Shown: piece after piece, positions 2,823 to 19,894 of the stretch
Position numbering within the stretch: position 1 is the stretch's first letter
How the letters are laid out: each line of letters starts with the position of its first letter
Assembly (NCBI RefSeq): GCF_000337175.1
Contig: NZ_AOIJ01000049.1
Span: 143,216 to 175,362, forward strand
Source of the DNA: Natrinema gari JCM 14663
GTDB taxonomy: Archaea; Halobacteriota; Halobacteria; Halobacteriales; Natrialbaceae
Length of the DNA: 32,147 nt
Direction of reading: 5' to 3'
The notes under the pieces: model-generated
Database searches by the model: none
What the model saw: the letters and a program-made list of their open reading frames with translations, nothing else
Told to the model about the DNA's origin: nothing
Made by a program: the position numbers and the translations under genes

Positions 2823-2921
2823 CTACTCTTCGAGCGGTGGGTCCTGAGAGGGAATGTAAACCTACTTCAATGGCACTGTCGCCTAATACTCGGATTCAAC
2901 GTTGTCTGATTGGAAAATCAG
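2823..2921 (-). pseudogene. Remnant of an mrr-type gene (C-terminal end, two in-frame stops)
   Basis: On the minus strand this reads LIFQSDNVESEY, a stop, ATVPLK, a stop, then VYIPSQDPPLEE and a final stop. The intact mrr gene at 5049-6059 ends LIQHYDDLESEYQATVPLKQ followed by VYIPSQDPPLEE. Both internal stops are CAG-to-TAG changes of conserved glutamines. DNA identity over the last 75 bases is about 80 percent. The remnant lies just inside the left island boundary and overlaps the last 4 bases of the 2918-3778 gene. It therefore marks a former second mrr copy that was cut off at that point. Confidence 0.8.
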
Positions 2922-3778
2922 TGTTCAACAGTTACGTCTGTACGTCGCAGATACTTGTCGTAGTTCCATGCAGATGCGATATTTAGAATTTTGCCAAGCT
3001 GGTATTCATAGGGTGTCAAGCTATGTGTCTCAATGTCCGGCATGGGGATGTCAGCGCGTGAGTCATCGACTGCGACGACGTACCCTTTGAGAACGGGCGA
3101 TGACCCATAGAAGATTGTGACTGTGAACTTCTGTCCGATGTGCGAGCCAAATTGAGCCCAATCCTCGTGGAAATCCTCGCGGTTCTCAAAGTCATCTCGT
3201 TCAATTCTCAAATCAACATCTGGCTCGTATGTGTAGCGTCCTTCAGTATCGTCATAGGTCCAGTCAGAGATGTCGGATTCTAAGATTGTTCTCTTAACGC
3301 TGTCCAATGATTCACTCTCCTCTACAAACTGGGGATAGTGTTTCTCTAGGAGCTCACGGTCATCCGAAAGTGCTAGGCTCAAATCGTCCCAGAACAGGAT
3401 GCGGAGGTCAAACACCCCGTCTTCACTCAACTCCTCTGAAAGCTCTCTTACTTCTTGTTGCAGCGGAGCATCAGATGGCGCAGCGCACGCAAATATGAAC
3501 TCGGAGAGTGGAGGCTCGAAATCCTTGGCCTTGTCAACCTCATCTTCCACAATATCAAGGTCGACTTCCGTCATGTTCTTACACTGAACACCTGCCAAAT
3601 CCCCATCTAAATGTGCGGGGGTTCCATAGATGTCGACTCCGTGTTGGGCCTGCCCTTGGCGTCCGTTCCTAGTCGTGTAGGGGTCGTCCCATTTCCGCTC
3701 TATCACATCTGCGACGATTGCCTCGAACTCTTCCCAGGATTCTGGGACTGGAAGTTCAGCCGTAGGAAATGTGGGCAT
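2918..3778 (-). CDS. Mrr/PD-(D/E)XK-type restriction endonuclease-like protein
   Basis: 286 residues. The N-terminal domain has the layout of a PD-(D/E)XK nuclease of the Mrr kind. There is an acidic helix around E17-E19, then HGVDIYG with Asp about 49, then GVQCKN with Gln 65 and Lys 67 (the QxK variant). Next comes an FWDDLSLAL...YPQF segment (about 125-150), which I associate with defence proteins that begin with such nuclease domains. The C-terminal 100 residues (VTIFYGSSPVLKGYVVAVDD) form a domain I do not recognise. It is the last gene of the minus-strand cluster. Its stop coincides with the decayed mrr remnant, so its own C-terminus may have been altered by that rearrangement. Likely DNA cleavage of foreign DNA, inferred. 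Confidence 0.75.
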   Translation of the reverse strand: MPTFPTAELPVPESWEEFEAIVADVIERKWDDPYTTRNGRQGQAQHGVDIYGTPAHLDGDLAGVQCKNMTEVDLDIVEDEVDKAKDFEPPLSEFIFACAAPSDAPLQQEVRELSEELSEDGVFDLRILFWDDLSLALSDDRELLEKHYPQFVEESESLDSVKRTILESDISDWTYDDTEGRYTYEPDVDLRIERDDFENREDFHEDWAQFGSHIGQKFTVTIFYGSSPVLKGYVVAVDDSRADIPMPDIETHSLTPYEYQLGKILNIASAWNYDKYLRRTDVTVEH

Positions 3779-5048: not shown

Positions 5049-6059
5049 TCATTCTTCGAGCGGAGGGTCTTGGGATGGAATATAGACCTGCTTTAGGGGA
5101 ACCGTCGCCTGATACTCGGATTCGAGGTCGTCGTAGTGCTGAATCAGGAGGTCAATAAACTCATCCCGGTCGATGAGTGTGACCCGCTGTTCGGCGTTCC
5201 GCGCGGCATCTTGTGCCTCACTTGTGTAGCCACCAGTCGAAACGAACAGGCCCCGTTCGCCGTTCCCGAGGGTTCCGGTGAATGCTCTCATATCCGGGGA
5301 GCCGACTTTCTTCTGTTGGCGCTTGACCTGTGCCTTGATATACGGCGATTCGAATCCCAACGAGTCGGGATGAGCGACTACGTCAATACCTCGGTCTTGG
5401 CTGTCCCGCGTCTTCTTCGCGTGGTATCCCATCGCTCGCAGGACTGCGGCGACCAACTCCTCGAAGATGAACGGGTCCATGTTCGCCAGAATGTCGGAGA
5501 TGAGTTCGTCTGCCTGGTTCTCCACTTCGTCGACGAATGGTACAGTGTCCTCGTCGTCCTCGCTCTCATCGGGTGTCTCCCCGCTTAGAACGCCCGTGAT
5601 TTCATCAATACAGTCGTCGAGCGAGAACACCGTGAGCGTGCTTCCGAGCGTGTTCTTCGTCGAGGTCGTGAACTCATCGCGGGAAACCGTATCCTCCCAT
5701 TCGACACGCCTGACGTGCGGATATCCTAGTGGGTGGTCGCTTGGTTTCCACTCGTACCCACTCGTGACCTCTCCAATGAGATACTCGCGCTCCGTCTTGT
5801 CGTAACTCAGAACTAGATGTCCCTCCTCCATTTCAAGCGCAAATCGATTCACCTGCCCCGCGTTCTGGGCGATACGCCGGCTATTGTGCTCGGAGTACTC
5901 GTCGGTCGAATTGAATCGGGCCTTCATCTCCTCGTATGACCGGACATCAGACACATCCCCCAGTTCCTCCCATCCAACCGCGACCAGAGAACGAGATTCG
6001 AATTCCTCGACTAACTCGTTGTCATTCCCGGCGCGAACCATGAACGCTCGCTCAGCCAT
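5049..6059 (-). CDS. mrr: Mrr family restriction endonuclease
   Basis: 336 residues. The C-terminal half is an Mrr catalytic domain of the PD-(D/E)XK fold: FIFEELVAAVLRAMGY with Glu 200/201, RGIDVVAH with Asp 226, and IKAQVKRQ with Gln 244 and Lys 246. It is followed by LFVSTGGYTSEAQDAA, a typical Mrr segment. The N-terminal 150 residues (AFMVRAGNDNELVEEF, then GEVTSGYEW) form a separate, probably base- or DNA-reading domain. An acidic linker (ESEDDEDTVPF) joins them. Mrr enzymes cut DNA, often modified DNA. It lies 75 bp downstream of the zinc-ribbon gene on the same strand. A decayed fragment of a close relative lies at 2823-2921. Confidence 0.9.
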   Translation of the reverse strand: MAERAFMVRAGNDNELVEEFESRSLVAVGWEELGDVSDVRSYEEMKARFNSTDEYSEHNSRRIAQNAGQVNRFALEMEEGHLVLSYDKTEREYLIGEVTSGYEWKPSDHPLGYPHVRRVEWEDTVSRDEFTTSTKNTLGSTLTVFSLDDCIDEITGVLSGETPDESEDDEDTVPFVDEVENQADELISDILANMDPFIFEELVAAVLRAMGYHAKKTRDSQDRGIDVVAHPDSLGFESPYIKAQVKRQQKKVGSPDMRAFTGTLGNGERGLFVSTGGYTSEAQDAARNAEQRVTLIDRDEFIDLLIQHYDDLESEYQATVPLKQVYIPSQDPPLEE

Positions 6060-6134: not shown

Positions 6135-6251
6135 CTATACGTGAAAGTTCTCGCCGCAGTTTCGACACGTTGCCCATCCACCTTGCTTCACTTTCTGGTT
6201 CTCGCCACACTCGGGGCATTCGCGCCAGACGGAACGATTGTGATGACTCAT
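6135..6251 (-). CDS. 38-residue zinc-ribbon protein
   Basis: The minus strand from ATG 6251 encodes 38 residues ending at TAG 6135. It contains CPEC followed after 16 residues by CRNC, a four-cysteine zinc ribbon, with Trp residues at WRECPEC and GGWATC. The ATG lies 2 bp after the stop of the GHKL ATPase gene, so it is almost certainly co-transcribed and translationally coupled with it. Mini zinc ribbons often act as nucleic-acid or protein adaptors. The spacing suggests it is a partner of the ATPase. It is short and easily missed by gene finders. Confidence 0.8.
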   Translation of the reverse strand: MSHHNRSVWRECPECGENQKVKQGGWATCRNCGENFHV

Positions 6252-6253
6252 TG

Positions 6254-7651
6254 TTATTCTATAGCCGATTCCGCAACTTCGCCAAGGAGTTGGGTAAGTG
6301 CGTCCTCAAACCGCCTCGTTAGGTCGGAAGCACCGCCGCTTTTGGGATGAGCTACTTCGTGAAGGAGTGTACTCGCAAATGTACGCGGACTCTGAAGCCT
6401 ATCCCGACGGATAACAATTCTCCGTTCTCCCCCTTCCCAGACGCCCCTCGCCATGTCACCCTGTTCTGTCATTCGAACAGTTTCTGAAACCCGTATTTCA
6501 TCGACTGGCGGTCGTTCATCAAGCAACCCGAGTATCTCATCACGGAGGTTCCAGACTCGAAGCTCTTCGTTCGTCATTTCGTTCTCTGGAACCCACTCGT
6601 ATTCGTGAGCTTCATTGTACTCTTGGCGATAGACTCCTACGTCACGAATTTGATTTCCTTCAGCGTCTCGTTCGTTCCGTAGTTCGTCTCGAATATTGTC
6701 GGGAACCGTGACAACGCGATGACCCTCTCGCTGTGCATGGTCCAATAGGTCGACTTTGCGGTTTTGTTCTTCAACTGTCGCAAATACCACGTTATCTTGC
6801 GCGTTCAGAAGTTTCACGGCGTGCAGACGAATCGGCTTCCAATTCACCTCGTCATGTGTCGTCCCATCAGTGAAGTTCTCGAAGTCGTCTACGAGGCGCT
6901 GAGCGACATCTGTGGTTTCACACTCCCGAAGGATATCTTTCACCCGCGAACTGTATGCCGTACGTCCCACGTTTGAACGCTCCCGATTCAAGGCGTCTCG
7001 CACTTGCTTGGTCGTCTTCGTGATATTGTAGCTGAAAAGGAAGTTCTCCTCGGTAGCGACCTTGAGCCCTGTCACGTAGATACGAGAATCCTCGCCTGCG
7101 GGGGAAGCGTAGACTTCTCCGAACTTGGTTTCCTCCAGTAGTTCGTCGTCGGTGAAACGTAGGAAGTTGCTTTTGGCCTGGTCGATTTGGCTCTCGGTGA
7201 TGCCCTCGAGAACCACGTCCGTCCCCTCAATATCTTGCTCTGGGGGATAGATGAGTCCGTGCAGCGTTTCGATGTCTTCGAAATCTGCCTTGGGTGCTTT
7301 CTCGACGGTAATTGTCTCGTGCTTCGAGTGAATGGTCACGTCGACTCCGTTCCGGTAGAACGTCGCAAGCGCGTCCTTCAATCCGACGCCGAATTTCCCG
7401 ATTACCTTGTCCGGGTTGTTCAGCTTCTCCTCGTCCTCGTTCTGCGTGAGATGCTCGTGGCGTAGCCCTCGACCGTAGTCCCGAATGTGCCATCTCCCCT
7501 CGTCGTCTTCGTAGATTTCTACTTCACTTGTCTCTGTGAGGGCCTGTTCGTCGAGGGCGTTGGCGATTACCTCTCGGGTTGCATCCGCGACGCCCCACGC
7601 CTCAAGCACCTCCTCCATATTGAGGTCGAATTTTCGCGCCTGTTCGGACAT
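6254..7651 (-). CDS. GHKL (Bergerat-fold) ATPase fused to a C-terminal HExxH metallopeptidase-like domain
   Basis: 465 residues. The N-terminal 200 residues carry all Bergerat ATP-binding motifs: N-box EVIANALDEQ (Glu 27, Asn 31), G1 box RDYGRGL (Asp 58, Gly 60, Gly 62) and G2 box GKFGVGLKDAL (85-95). This is the MORC/Hsp90-like type of GHKL ATPase. The middle (about 200-400) is not recognised. The last 40 residues contain LLHEVAH (His 431, Glu 432, His 435), a zinc-peptidase signature, with a possible third ligand at Glu 449. It is the first gene of the minus-strand cluster. A TATA-like element (gtctaaactt on the minus strand, 7680-7689) lies just upstream. The fusion suggests ATP-controlled proteolysis; the target is unknown. 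Confidence 0.85.
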   Translation of the reverse strand: MSEQARKFDLNMEEVLEAWGVADATREVIANALDEQALTETSEVEIYEDDEGRWHIRDYGRGLRHEHLTQNEDEEKLNNPDKVIGKFGVGLKDALATFYRNGVDVTIHSKHETITVEKAPKADFEDIETLHGLIYPPEQDIEGTDVVLEGITESQIDQAKSNFLRFTDDELLEETKFGEVYASPAGEDSRIYVTGLKVATEENFLFSYNITKTTKQVRDALNRERSNVGRTAYSSRVKDILRECETTDVAQRLVDDFENFTDGTTHDEVNWKPIRLHAVKLLNAQDNVVFATVEEQNRKVDLLDHAQREGHRVVTVPDNIRDELRNERDAEGNQIRDVGVYRQEYNEAHEYEWVPENEMTNEELRVWNLRDEILGLLDERPPVDEIRVSETVRMTEQGDMARGVWEGGERRIVIRRDRLQSPRTFASTLLHEVAHPKSGGASDLTRRFEDALTQLLGEVAESAIE

Positions 7652-7796: not shown

Positions 7797-8456
7797 CTAA
7801 CTCTCGTCGGTCTGCTGAAGACGCAAGCTCGCGGAACTGTTTACCTCGTAACGCCATCCACGCCGTTTCGAGGGCTTGTCGTTCCGTTTCTGGGCGGGAA
7901 TCCAGGTGCAGTCGCCAACGTACTGTCGACTCCCGTTTGAGGCGAAAGCGAATGCTGTCGTTTGCTCTGGTATCTCGGTGAGCGCATCCGCCACTGACAG
8001 AAGATATGGCTCACTCAGGACGACGAATAGCAAGTCATACTCCCGGCTCAGTACATCACTGAACGCCTGAGGTATTCCCTTCTCGCGGCCGACTGCCTGA
8101 ATCGTCTCGTCGTTCGTCAGGTCGTCAATATCGTATCCCGTTCGCTTGGCCCTCGTTCGAACGGATTCTATGTCGCTGAACCCGCACTCATAGGACGGAA
8201 TTTCGGTCCTGTCACGTAGTAATCCAAATCCCGCGGAAATGATGTACCAGTCGACATCTGCAACCTCACGGAGATGAGTGACTGCCTCTTCGACGTGCTT
8301 GTGCTCACGACCAGTGTACATGTTGGACGCAGTCGTCGTGTACTCGCCGTGTTCATTCGCTAATTCCTCGCGCGGACACTCGTCTACGTCCTCACAGTCG
8401 AGAACGGGGTCGTATCGTTTGTCTTTGGAACACGGCGAGAGTACGAGGATGTCCAT
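7797..8456 (-). CDS. DUF6884/YaaA-like protein
   Basis: 219 residues. It opens LVLSPCSKDKRYD. Later it has NMYTGREHKHVEEA and DWYIISAGFGLL followed by IPSYECGF. This order (Cys-Ser-Lys near the N-terminus, a YTG segment, an ISAxxGL strand and a PxY) matches the DUF6884 and peroxide-stress YaaA-like superfamily. That superfamily is structurally linked to nucleobase-handling and DNA-binding proteins. The C-terminus (KRNDKPSKRRGWRYE) is basic. The gene is divergent from the GIY-YIG-like gene with 73 bp between the starts. It may act on nucleic acid or modified bases; that is inference. Confidence 0.65.
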   Translation of the reverse strand: MDILVLSPCSKDKRYDPVLDCEDVDECPREELANEHGEYTTTASNMYTGREHKHVEEAVTHLREVADVDWYIISAGFGLLRDRTEIPSYECGFSDIESVRTRAKRTGYDIDDLTNDETIQAVGREKGIPQAFSDVLSREYDLLFVVLSEPYLLSVADALTEIPEQTTAFAFASNGSRQYVGDCTWIPAQKRNDKPSKRRGWRYEVNSSASLRLQQTDES

Positions 8457-11756: not shown

Positions 11757-12290
11757 ATGAGTGACGAAGAGCCACAGCAAACCGAGTGGGAGAACGAGGT
11801 CGGCTTGTCCGAGGAGACGACCTACGTTGCGCTCTACCCGAGCCGCAAGCACGCCGAGGAGTGGATGGAGGAGAGCGAGGAGCAAGGCTACGGGAGCCGG
11901 TCAAAGTACCTCTATGAACTGATACAAGAGGCCCGCGCTGCCCGTCAAGAAGGGTTCCTCGCATACAGTCAGAACGAGTCGAAGGTGGAAGAACTACAAC
12001 TGCAAGTCGAGCAGTTGCAGGACGACCTTGAAGACGCTCGTAACTCCGAACCCGGTGAAATCGATATCGAACACGAGGAGTTCGTCACTGCGTTCCTCAC
12101 CGACCGCTACCAGGAGTTCGAAACCATTCTCAAAGAGGTGACGGGGAGCGGCGTCCTCACGGGAATCGTCAAGGATGCTGTTGAGGAGCAGCTGTTCGAC
12201 CTCGCAGAAGAGAACAAAGTCGAGTATAAGCAAGGGTATGGGTGGCGACTTACTCACGACGACGCTGACGCGGAGGTGGTCGAAGCATGA
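11757..12290 (+). CDS. DUF5805-like integrase-associated protein
   Basis: 177 residues. The N-terminal part (TTYVALYPSRKHAEEWMEE, then GYGSRSKYLYELIQEARAAR) looks like a ribbon-helix-helix-type segment. A coiled coil follows at about 75-100 (KVEELQLQVEQLQDDLEDA). The C-terminal winged-helix-like part ends KQGYGWRLTHDD. I associate this with DUF5805 proteins of haloarchaea. The stop overlaps the integrase start by 4 bp (ATGA at 12287-12290), so the two are co-translated. It may be an integrase accessory or directionality factor; that role is inferred from position. Confidence 0.7.
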   Translation: MSDEEPQQTEWENEVGLSEETTYVALYPSRKHAEEWMEESEEQGYGSRSKYLYELIQEARAARQEGFLAYSQNESKVEELQLQVEQLQDDLEDARNSEPGEIDIEHEEFVTAFLTDRYQEFETILKEVTGSGVLTGIVKDAVEEQLFDLAEENKVEYKQGYGWRLTHDDADAEVVEA

Positions 12291-13219
12291 CGGGGAAGAC
12301 CCGCGAGAAGATTTACGAGAACGAGCACGACGCGGTCAACGACTTCATCCAACGGAAGGAGGCGATGGGGCGCAGTCGTCGAACGCTCAACGCCTACTCC
12401 CGAACGCTGAAATCATTCTTCCACGAGGAATTCCCTGACCTCGCGCCCGAAGACGTCAAGGTGGAACATATCGAGGACTACGTCGGTACGCTTGCCGACC
12501 GCAACCTTTCGCGGAACACGAAGCGGCGATACCTCGAATCGCTGTCGTCGTTCTACGGGTGGACGATGAAGCGGCCACGGTTTGAAGATATCACTGGGAA
12601 TCCCGCAGCGGTCGTCCTCGAAGAAATCCCACAGAAGTACCGCGACCGTCCCGACTGCGCGACGTGGGAGAGCGCAAAGAAAATCGTCCATAACATCGCT
12701 GACCCACGGAACAAGGCGATTGCCGTCATTCTCGCAAAGACGGGTTGCCGGATTCGCGAGGCACTCGAAATCGAACAGGACGACCTCATGCTTGATGACG
12801 GATTCATCCGCCTTCGTGAGCGCAAGGGCGGGAGTCAAACAGTCGTCCCTGTTGACGAGGAGGTGAAGCACGCCATCAAACGGTATCGTCTCGTTCGCCC
12901 AGATAGCGACTCCGAGTACTTGTTCCTGAGCATTCGCGGGAATCGGGTGAATACGACGCAGGTGCAGCGAGCCGTTCGTGACGCTGCGGTCGAGGCAGGC
13001 GTGATGGACGAGGGCGAGACGCGCTTTCACCGCAAGTTTACCCCTCACACGTTCCGGACAGTATTCACGACACTGATGCGTAACAACGAGATGCCGGACC
13101 ACTATCTCCAGTACATCAGGGGAGATTCAAATTCTCGTACCATGGACATATATACAAGGGTTGACAGATACGATGCGAAGCAGTCGTATCTTGAGTGCAT
13201 CGAGTTACTCGACCTCTAG
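12287..13219 (+). CDS. Tyrosine recombinase / phage-type integrase
   Basis: 310 residues. The N-terminal SAM-like core-binding domain (about 15-95) contains RTLNAYSRTLKSFFHEEF. The catalytic domain has TGCRIREAL (Arg 155), a strand with Lys in RERKGGSQTVV, and HTFR (His 254, Arg 257). The nucleophile is Tyr 289 in MDIYTRV. The position usually held by a second histidine reads IRGDSNS, so Asp replaces His, as I recall from other archaeal integrases. It cuts and rejoins DNA at attachment sites and likely moved part of this island. No matching attachment core is obvious next to it. Confidence 0.92.
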   Translation: MTGKTREKIYENEHDAVNDFIQRKEAMGRSRRTLNAYSRTLKSFFHEEFPDLAPEDVKVEHIEDYVGTLADRNLSRNTKRRYLESLSSFYGWTMKRPRFEDITGNPAAVVLEEIPQKYRDRPDCATWESAKKIVHNIADPRNKAIAVILAKTGCRIREALEIEQDDLMLDDGFIRLRERKGGSQTVVPVDEEVKHAIKRYRLVRPDSDSEYLFLSIRGNRVNTTQVQRAVRDAAVEAGVMDEGETRFHRKFTPHTFRTVFTTLMRNNEMPDHYLQYIRGDSNSRTMDIYTRVDRYDAKQSYLECIELLDL

Positions 13220-18284: not shown

Positions 18285-18731
18285 ATGGACGACCCCGAAC
18301 GGCCCGGCCCCGACGCTGATGCCGCTGAGATAGCGGAGTGGATGGAGAAGGATTTCGGGCGGGCCGTTGCCGAGGGGATAGCAAACGCTGGTGACGAAGA
18401 CGACCCCGACGATGAGCACGAGGTCGTAGAGGTCGAGATACTCAATTACGAGCGGGGCGAGGTGGTCGGGACGATAGACACGGACGGAAACCTCGATACG
18501 GAGAGCGAGGCATTACGCGAGGTCTCGCAGGAGTATATTGACGAGGGCATCCCCGTACTTGTCCCCACGACCTACGAGAACGAGGACGGTGAAACGGTTC
18601 ACGCCGACGCTGAGGTGATGGTCGAACCGGGAACCACAGGATTCGTGCGGGCATTCGTTGACGAGCTCCCGAGTCCGTTCGACTGTGACACAGATGTTCT
18701 CCGTGAACTGCCCGTGTTTGAACCCGAGTGA
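18285..18731 (+). CDS. Acidic hypothetical protein
   Basis: 148 residues from ATG 18285. The promoter box gactaaataccg (about 18253-18264) is centred about 27 nt upstream, consistent with leaderless expression. The protein is strongly acidic (GDEDDPDDEHEVVEVEIL) with a beta-rich C-terminal half (GIPVLVPTTYENEDGETVHA). It has no known motif. It is in the same orientation as the HhH gene (43 bp before) and the PLD-like gene (41 bp after), so it could belong to the same cluster. Confidence 0.65.
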   Translation: MDDPERPGPDADAAEIAEWMEKDFGRAVAEGIANAGDEDDPDDEHEVVEVEILNYERGEVVGTIDTDGNLDTESEALREVSQEYIDEGIPVLVPTTYENEDGETVHADAEVMVEPGTTGFVRAFVDELPSPFDCDTDVLRELPVFEPE

Positions 18732-18772
18732 CCCCTATATCGTTTTGCCAGCTTGCGGTCAATTCTCCGGGT

Positions 18773-19894
18773 ATGACCGAACTCGTATACCATAACCCTG
18801 CGGACCGAACCGGAATATCACCGTTCGATAGGGCCATCCGTGAGATTACGGACGACGAGGAGGTGCTAATCGCCTGTCCGTACATCTCTCCTGACTACCT
18901 CCAAGAAATTACCGAACAAACGAACGAATGGTTCCTCCTGACCGACGTAGGAGAGTGGTTGAGCATCCACGGACAGACGAACCGCGAGGCGATTCAGGAG
19001 TTCCTCATCGAACACCAAGACCACGTCAGGCACGTTACGAACCTACACGCGAAGGTCGTCGTTGGTGGCGACCGGGTGTTGATAGGGTCAGCGAACTTCA
19101 CGAAGAAAGGACTCACCGGACGAACGGAGATGTCCGTACTCCTCGATGAACAGGATACCATCGATGAACTCACCGAGTGGTTCGAGACGTTATGGTCGAT
19201 ATACGACCCACCGGAGGTTGACCGGGTCGAAGAGTACATAGAATCCGCATCCACAACACCGAGTCCTGCGCAGAATCAATCGAGTATTTCTTTTTCATCA
19301 GGTGAATCGCCGGGCACAGCGTCCCTATCTGAATCGAAAAGGGACACCGAAGTCGTGGACGTAGAACACGAGGAGAGTCATGCAGAACTCGTCCAGAGGG
19401 TCAGTAAAGCACCCAGTCCCGAATGGATATATTCGTATTTCAAATTGGTCGATGGGGTGCTATCCGAGACGGGACTCACGAACGATGACCCTCGGTTACT
19501 CATGTCCATCCCGCAGGCTGGGACGCTCCCTGTGACAGTGAATAACCGGTACGTGCTCGTTGCGTTTCGAGGTGAGCCGTCCAGAACCGAGTTCATCCTA
19601 CCATCGACGGAGAAATCTGAACCGTACATCGAACAGGCGGATTACACCGGACGGTTCGACTCAATATACGACGAAGATGAATCCGATAGGCCGTGGTTCG
19701 TGGGATTCGATGGGATTCCTAATCGGATAGTTGACGAGGAGTTCCGGGAGGTGTGGATGAGCGCCGTGAATAAGGAGATGGAACGAGCAGAGAAGGCCCC
19801 ACAGAGACGGTATCACGACCCTGTGGTATACCGTGTAGCACGAGACCGCAAGTACCATGAGAAGGTAATCCGTGAAGCGTTCGAACAGGATTGA
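18773..19894 (+). CDS. Phospholipase-D-superfamily nuclease-like protein
   Basis: I choose ATG 18773 (MTELVYHNPADRTG), giving 373 residues. The upstream in-frame ATG at 18728 overlaps the previous stop and would remove the CCTATATCG promoter at 18734-18742. One HKD motif is present: NLHAKVVVGGDRVLIGSANF, with His 92, Lys 94, Asp 100, Ser 106 and Asn 108. Such single-motif proteins usually form the active site as dimers, as in PLD-type nucleases. The C-terminal half (about 190-373) contains PEWIYSYFKLVDGVL and is unrecognised. It may be an effector nuclease working with the HhH protein upstream; that pairing is inference. Confidence 0.75.
   Translation: MTELVYHNPADRTGISPFDRAIREITDDEEVLIACPYISPDYLQEITEQTNEWFLLTDVGEWLSIHGQTNREAIQEFLIEHQDHVRHVTNLHAKVVVGGDRVLIGSANFTKKGLTGRTEMSVLLDEQDTIDELTEWFETLWSIYDPPEVDRVEEYIESASTTPSPAQNQSSISFSSGESPGTASLSESKRDTEVVDVEHEESHAELVQRVSKAPSPEWIYSYFKLVDGVLSETGLTNDDPRLLMSIPQAGTLPVTVNNRYVLVAFRGEPSRTEFILPSTEKSEPYIEQADYTGRFDSIYDEDESDRPWFVGFDGIPNRIVDEEFREVWMSAVNKEMERAEKAPQRRYHDPVVYRVARDRKYHEKVIREAFEQD

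Follow-up and report, generated by a model that had tools for sequence, protein, structure and literature searches.

The Natrinema gari locus

The window, that is the whole stretch of 32,147 nucleotides analysed here, comes from Natrinema gari JCM 14663 and carries an open reading frame running on the minus strand from 7651 to 6254, with an ATG start and a TAA stop, which encodes a protein of 465 residues (P0001). The gene, its parts and its immediate neighbours are as follows:

6254..7651, minus strand: coding sequence of P0001, a predicted Hsp90-type GHKL ATPase with a C-terminal HExxH zincin (open reading frame, homologues, AlphaFold2 model)
7202..7651, minus strand: GHKL (Bergerat) ATP-binding domain, residues 1-150 (Pfam HATPase_c_3, conserved motifs, fold match to Hsp90, MORC2 and GyrB)
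7550..7576, minus strand: N-box RExxANAxD, residues 26-34, with the presumed catalytic base Glu27 (R26, E27 and D34 invariant in the alignments)
7376..7402, minus strand: G2 box IGKFGVGLK (ATP lid), residues 84-92 (I84, G85, G88 and G90 invariant)
6617..7201, minus strand: S5-like unit plus a second alpha/beta unit, Hsp90 middle-domain-like, residues 151-345 (TRAP1/Hsp90 fold match, HtpG alignment)
6977..6985, minus strand: R-E-R, residues 223-225, candidate Arg finger (R223 and R225 invariant in alignments A1 and A4)
6257..6547, minus strand: predicted minimal zincin domain, residues 369-465 (separate model, fold and profile matches)
6347..6361, minus strand: HEVAH, predicted zinc-binding and catalytic motif, residues 431-435 (retained by 31 of the 35 homologues that have a tail)
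6323..6325, minus strand: Asp443, present in every homologue with an active-type tail (alignment)
6305..6307, minus strand: Glu449, candidate third zinc ligand (alignment of type-a tails)
6135..6251, minus strand: unannotated 38-residue zinc-ribbon reading frame (CPECG...CRNCG) between the ATPase and Mrr genes, starting 2 bp past the ATPase stop
5049..6059, minus strand: Mrr-type restriction nuclease (PADLOC PDC-S02, E 6.6e-115), the next downstream gene of a size usually annotated
7797..8456, minus strand: DUF6884/DpdC-like protein, the upstream neighbour (DpdC-like match, 6.4e-14), also present in Halovivax (74% identical)

All the motifs that define the GHKL superfamily are found in P0001: besides the N-box and the G2 box, it has a G1 motif (D58-x-G60-x-G62) and a GT motif (G143-T144), and Pfam HATPase_c_3 matches residues 23-127 with an E-value of 1.8e-5, just over the cut-off. 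LLHEVAH lies at residues 429-435 of the same chain. The initial annotation, which had joined a GHKL ATPase and an HExxH motif in one protein of 465 residues and placed the two histidines at 431 and 435, was thus correct on both counts, although it gave no strand. In an alignment of 45 relatives, R225 is present in all of them and R223 in 44, and the G1 and GT motifs are partly missing from some of the phage proteins.

The DpdC-like, ATPase and Mrr genes occur in the same order in Halovivax, where a single additional gene is inserted upstream, and the Mrr proteins of both organisms are identical at 318 of 336 positions (95%). The 38-codon reading frame, MSHHNRSVWRECPECGENQKVKQGGWATCRNCGENFHV, is also found in Halovivax asiaticus, in which its ATG overlaps the ATPase stop. 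Since nine of the twelve base differences between both copies fall at third codon positions, this reading frame probably encodes a real zinc-ribbon microprotein. The same string of genes holds a second, weaker Mrr_cat-like protein (2918-3778, minus strand). Elsewhere in the window, a PLD-family protein with a DrmC-like match (18728-19894, plus strand) lies in a low-GC accessory region together with a tyrosine integrase (12287-13219). The window begins at a scaffold gap (1-40): it has a perfect Nextera mosaic-end at 18-36, and just upstream in the genome lie the reverse adaptor and then a run of Ns. This is likely an uncorrected assembly artefact, so the join at the window start is unsafe.

Predicted folds of the motor and the tail

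We built an AlphaFold2 model of P0001 from an alignment of 18 sequences, obtaining a mean pLDDT of 87 and a pTM of 0.71 for the whole protein. The fold search with this model matched the motor to the N-terminal plus middle domains of TRAP1 (4ivg; residues 9-344, Z 13.1, 286 residues aligned, rmsd 7.8) and 8u1m (Z 12.9, 278 aligned, rmsd 5.2), followed by MORC2 (Z 12.2) and GyrB (Z 11.9), and the matches to these last two mostly end near residue 265. The ranking of Hsp90, MORC2 and GyrB is indecisive when taken alone because the Z values lie within about one unit. Beyond residue 250, the middle domain of E. coli HtpG (394-492) aligns by sequence to residues 251-346 of P0001, and human Hsp90-beta gives a weak sequence match (E 0.36). 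Regarding MORC, a loose pattern for its S5 motif (GhXhhpXXRhl) was found in none of the 45 family members when the S5 region was searched. Given the span of the fold past residue 250, the HtpG alignment and the absence of the S5 signature, the motor looks Hsp90-like in the predicted model (N-terminal plus middle-domain fold) rather than MORC-like. The term MORC-like used by the initial annotation is not supported in its narrow sense, as the fold also runs past S5 into a second unit of the Hsp90 middle domain. We call the motor Hsp90-like by fold without assigning it to the Hsp90 family; the Hsp90 profile PF00183 gave no match in P0001 at E-values up to 1. A canonical Hsp90 was also considered as the source of the motor and discarded, PF00183 being absent from 197 genomes of the phylum. 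The C-terminal dimerisation domain of Hsp90 is missing from P0001, and at that place the model has a separately folded zincin, which in effect would take the place of the missing domain.

The tail was folded alone because the motor matches filled the fold search done with the whole model. It gave a pLDDT of 95.6, and its nearest folds were those of Wss1 (Z 9.9 over 105 aligned residues at 2.8 A, and 9.6) and S. pombe Wss1 (9.1 and 8.7), with lower values for an Aquifex protein (7.7), the minigluzincin abylysin (7.2) and SPRTN (7.0). Foldseek E-values for this small domain were weak (best 0.026, abylysin). In the tail profile search, a chain named P4 came first (E 0.00085), followed by Wss1 (0.0025) and S. 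pombe Wss1 (0.0065); searching the PDB sequences with P0001 as a single protein gave no match, so that profiles were required. The only Pfam match hinting at a function for the tail was a weak one to DUF6782, 'putative metallopeptidase' (E 0.021). No match to the SprT-like family (PF10263) was listed for the P0001 tail, and the tails of nine of 18 relatives matched it weakly (best 0.004, below the gathering score). The modelled HExxH lies in a helix (422-437), and a further helix begins at 446, close to E449; minimal zincins are arranged in this way. As a predicted model, the tail therefore has what characterises zincin metallopeptidases, an HExxH within a conserved zincin fold, and the metallopeptidase-like nature that had been proposed from the motif gains a structural basis.

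Some HExxH domains are oxygenases, and one could argue for some non-protease metal enzyme as the tail, given that the HExxH oxygenase domain of ChlB is among the fold matches (Z 5.8). We consider this very improbable indeed: better matches (Z 9.9 to 7.0) come from Wss1, abylysin and SPRTN, and the tail retains the catalytic Glu432.

Conservation, distribution and gene neighbourhoods

The presence of the HExxH motif is weak evidence by itself, because 4.5% of shuffled versions of P0001 carry one somewhere. The alignment of 45 relatives comprises 31 proteins with intact tails, four with degenerate tails and ten short phage proteins lacking the tail. Every one of the 31 intact tails has H431, E432, H435, G403 and D443, at identities down to about 20%. 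A chance HExxH is hence ruled out, as the motif is kept among tailed homologues from archaea, bacteria and phages. The initial annotation had made its reading of the tail depend on this conservation, which extends to 31 of the 35 tailed proteins. The intact tails are of two types. Type-a tails follow the pattern HExxH...D....FE, in a stretch of 18 residues in nearly all of them, 19 in P0001 and the Halovivax protein, and 17 in one relative (L048), while type-b tails, found in some phages, have HExxH...DG...H. According to these two types, the candidate third ligand is either Glu (Glu449) or His: where Wss1/WLM and SprT proteins have a third-ligand His, type-a tails have Glu449 by alignment and type-b phage tails have His. 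Between close pairs, the tail changes at the protein level about two to five times faster than the motor.

In four haloarchaeal proteins (L005, L006, L007 and L014), the tail is degenerate, HExxH having become DIxxF (LLDIVAF), and the ATPase is intact. These four form a single clade (support 100/100) inside the active group, and their tails are under purifying selection (dN/dS 0.09-0.21). They are closely similar proteins from different families, and the clade suggests a recent spread together with a non-proteolytic use. The tail-less phage forms also group together in the tree (91/81). One reading of these data is that the ATPase is the effector, acting as a DNA or protein clamp in the manner of paraMORC or rIIA, with a tail that serves chiefly for structure or binding. 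Such a role would fit both the clade in which a dead tail is still under selection next to an intact ATPase and the short phage members; however, every other tailed member retains HExxH, G403 and D443 despite very large divergence, and we regard such a role as distinctly improbable.

The gene is scattered among haloarchaea: of 100 related genomes, 8 gave a match, spread over 6 of 54 genera, and one of these matches is a fragment. Full-length relatives are found in Halovivax asiaticus (86% identity) and Halobellus (61%), and plasmids carry further full-length ones at 44-59% in Natrinema, the halophilic archaeon DL31, Salinibacter ruber, Halorussus, Euzebya, Priestia and Croceicoccus. More distant relatives, with around 20-30% identity, are present in large phages. 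The Salinibacter protein is nested among archaeal ones in the tree, and the E. coli genomes gave no DNA match to the relative at locus L029. The GHKL-zincin gene is patchy and mobile. Other forms were also seen: an Alkaliphilus plasmid protein (L018, 5896-9210) has three tandem GHKL/Hsp90-like units and one C-terminal zincin, and a Citrobacter plasmid (L019, 6001-6348) encodes the zincin tail alone (115 residues), with no ATPase reading frame just upstream; we treat this last gene as a remnant or a stand-alone peptidase. A stretch of 57 residues at L008 (1510-1680; G087:C1:37817-37987), 74% identical to the tail, is apparently a decayed copy.

No neighbour conserved across the whole family was found. 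On the Salinibacter plasmid pSR56, hsdS and hsdR flank the relative, and a SprT-family gene comes directly after hsdR; elsewhere the gene adjoins BrxL, PglZ and PglX (BREX), or is near Piwi (an Argonaute locus), SIR2 and PLD genes. SbcCD genes are near the Croceicoccus copy, and some copies lack any clear defence neighbour. The PADLOC 2.0 anti-phage profiles gave no family for P0001 at E-values up to 1. Compared qualitatively, these defence-type neighbourhoods are suggestive of a role in defence. In Halobellus-type loci, a protein with an N-terminal DIET motif is encoded directly behind the ATPase gene (L010, 6391-7128; L060, 10384-11121; L011, 9505-10203). It resembles a 3'-5' exonuclease by eye only, with no Pfam or PDB match, and we did not adopt it as a partner because its Haloferax copy is on a plasmid in which no GHKL-zincin relative was found.

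These neighbourhoods bear on two further explanations. The first is proteolytic control of restriction, in which a partner restriction enzyme would be degraded or remodelled in cells whose own DNA lacks modification, with the phage copies serving as anti-restriction. The position between hsdS and hsdR in Salinibacter, the Mrr nuclease downstream in two genera, the BREX neighbour and the carriage of relatives by phages all count in its favour, as does the fact that E. coli HsdR is under protease control (ClpXP). Many loci, such as those of Euzebya, Priestia and Croceicoccus, nevertheless have no adjacent restriction gene, and we hold this explanation to be unlikely, if one to be reckoned with. 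The second would make the protein a mobile functional analogue of Wss1/SPRTN, a protease for DNA-protein crosslinks or DNA repair that is not primarily immune. The fold nearest to its tail is that of Wss1, with SPRTN a weaker match, its profile matches are to Wss1, and the Croceicoccus copy has its SbcCD genes. Against this, the third-ligand candidate is Glu and not the His of Wss1/SPRTN, the distribution is patchy, and no DNA-binding region was found, the domains of P0001 being mostly near neutral or acidic (a charge that is uninformative on binding). We consider this repair role quite unlikely.

A proposed ATP-gated protease and its known counterparts

The architecture of the family is well supported. 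From established families, one would expect a GHKL plus middle-domain unit to close as an ATP-dependent clamp and an HExxH zincin to cleave peptides; with both in one chain, P0001 can be read as an ATP-gated metalloprotease. The motor, with its Hsp90-type N-terminal plus middle domains, would bind ATP, its N-terminal domains would dimerise, and the clamp would close on a target, bringing the minimal zincin at the C-terminus onto it. The zincin would then cleave a protein within the clamped complex. Given the resemblance of the zincin to Wss1/SPRTN and the frequent location of the gene among restriction-type systems, the likeliest substrate would be a DNA-bound or nucleoprotein-associated protein met in the conflict between phage and host: for host-borne copies, a protein of the phage or else a restriction enzyme, and for those borne by phages, a host protein. 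The data show the fusion, the conserved active sites, both folds as predicted models, the mobility and the neighbourhoods; we infer ATP hydrolysis, dimerisation, proteolysis, gating, substrate and biological role. That the protein is an ATP-gated metalloprotease with a nucleoprotein target, used in the conflict between phages and hosts, has in our view about an even chance of being right. Cleavage upon sensing infection or damage, as initially suggested, is plausible in view of the defence-type neighbourhoods and the similarity to crosslink proteases. Protease action would not be the sole use, nor the gene simply a host defence, because one clade has lost HExxH with the ATPase kept and phages carry the gene; a pure host-defence role is unlikely, many relatives being phage-borne.

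In broader terms, and more tentatively, the family may represent a class of conflict enzymes in which an Hsp90-type clamp has a Wss1/SPRTN-like protease in place of its C-terminal domain, ATP-driven closure on nucleoprotein gates proteolysis, and both host restriction-type immunity and phage counter-use are served, with tandem-motor and protease-dead derivatives. We see this as possible, though less likely than not. If the enzyme works in the way proposed, an Hsp90-like clamp would serve to gate proteolysis rather than in folding, and a protease of the DNA-protein-crosslink type would take part in the conflict of phages with their hosts.

The theme of a GHKL motor with a variable effector is already known; its combination with a zincin effector and an Hsp90-like middle domain was not found described in the literature searched. 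In the paraMORC and MORC proteins of restriction-modification loci, an N-terminal GHKL plus S5 is laterally mobile and sometimes has C-terminal nuclease or TIR effectors (Iyer, Abhiman, Aravind 2008, PMC2292703). The P0001 family shares with them the GHKL motor, the mobility and the restriction-type loci, and differs in its zincin effector, its second Hsp90-like middle unit and the lack of the MORC S5 motif. For paraMORC families 1-5, the general architecture of P0001 and some of its loci are compatible, and the ExxxH of paraMORC2 is absent from S5. The main text of PMC2292703 nowhere mentions a peptidase or protease. Likewise, we found no published description of a protease of the Wss1 (WLM), SPRTN (SprT) or abylysin type fused to a GHKL motor, and the literature and family libraries searched yielded no case of a protease joined directly to an Hsp90-type motor. 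The literature search, for which most subscription papers were out of reach, returned no paper with both GHKL and HExxH, and none with DUF6782.

Among phage proteins, P0001 matches phrog_6077 and phrog_8203 only. The first, a group with no function recorded, has the same motor (residues 15-330 of P0001, E 2.6e-26) and a profile that stops short of the zincin, and it gains a testable mechanism from the proposal. T4 rIIA, which matches phrog_612 and its kin, is also a phage-borne GHKL motor with a variable C-terminus, and the viral fold search returned RIIA proteins repeatedly; one tail-less relative is annotated as RIIA. It differs from P0001 in its size (725 residues), in lacking HExxH and in its PHROG, and both proteins align in the GHKL core only. 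The C-termini of rIIA-like phage proteins are variable (PMC7824862), and the present family has a bearing on why these domains vary so much.

Finally, sacsin combines tandem Hsp90-like modules with a C-terminal effector, HEPN (PMC3710099), in place of which P0001 has a zincin. P0001 gave a weak match to an NCBIfam sacsin-like domain (3.6e-4, below the cut-off), and the three tandem units plus tail of the Alkaliphilus relative recall the layout of sacsin.
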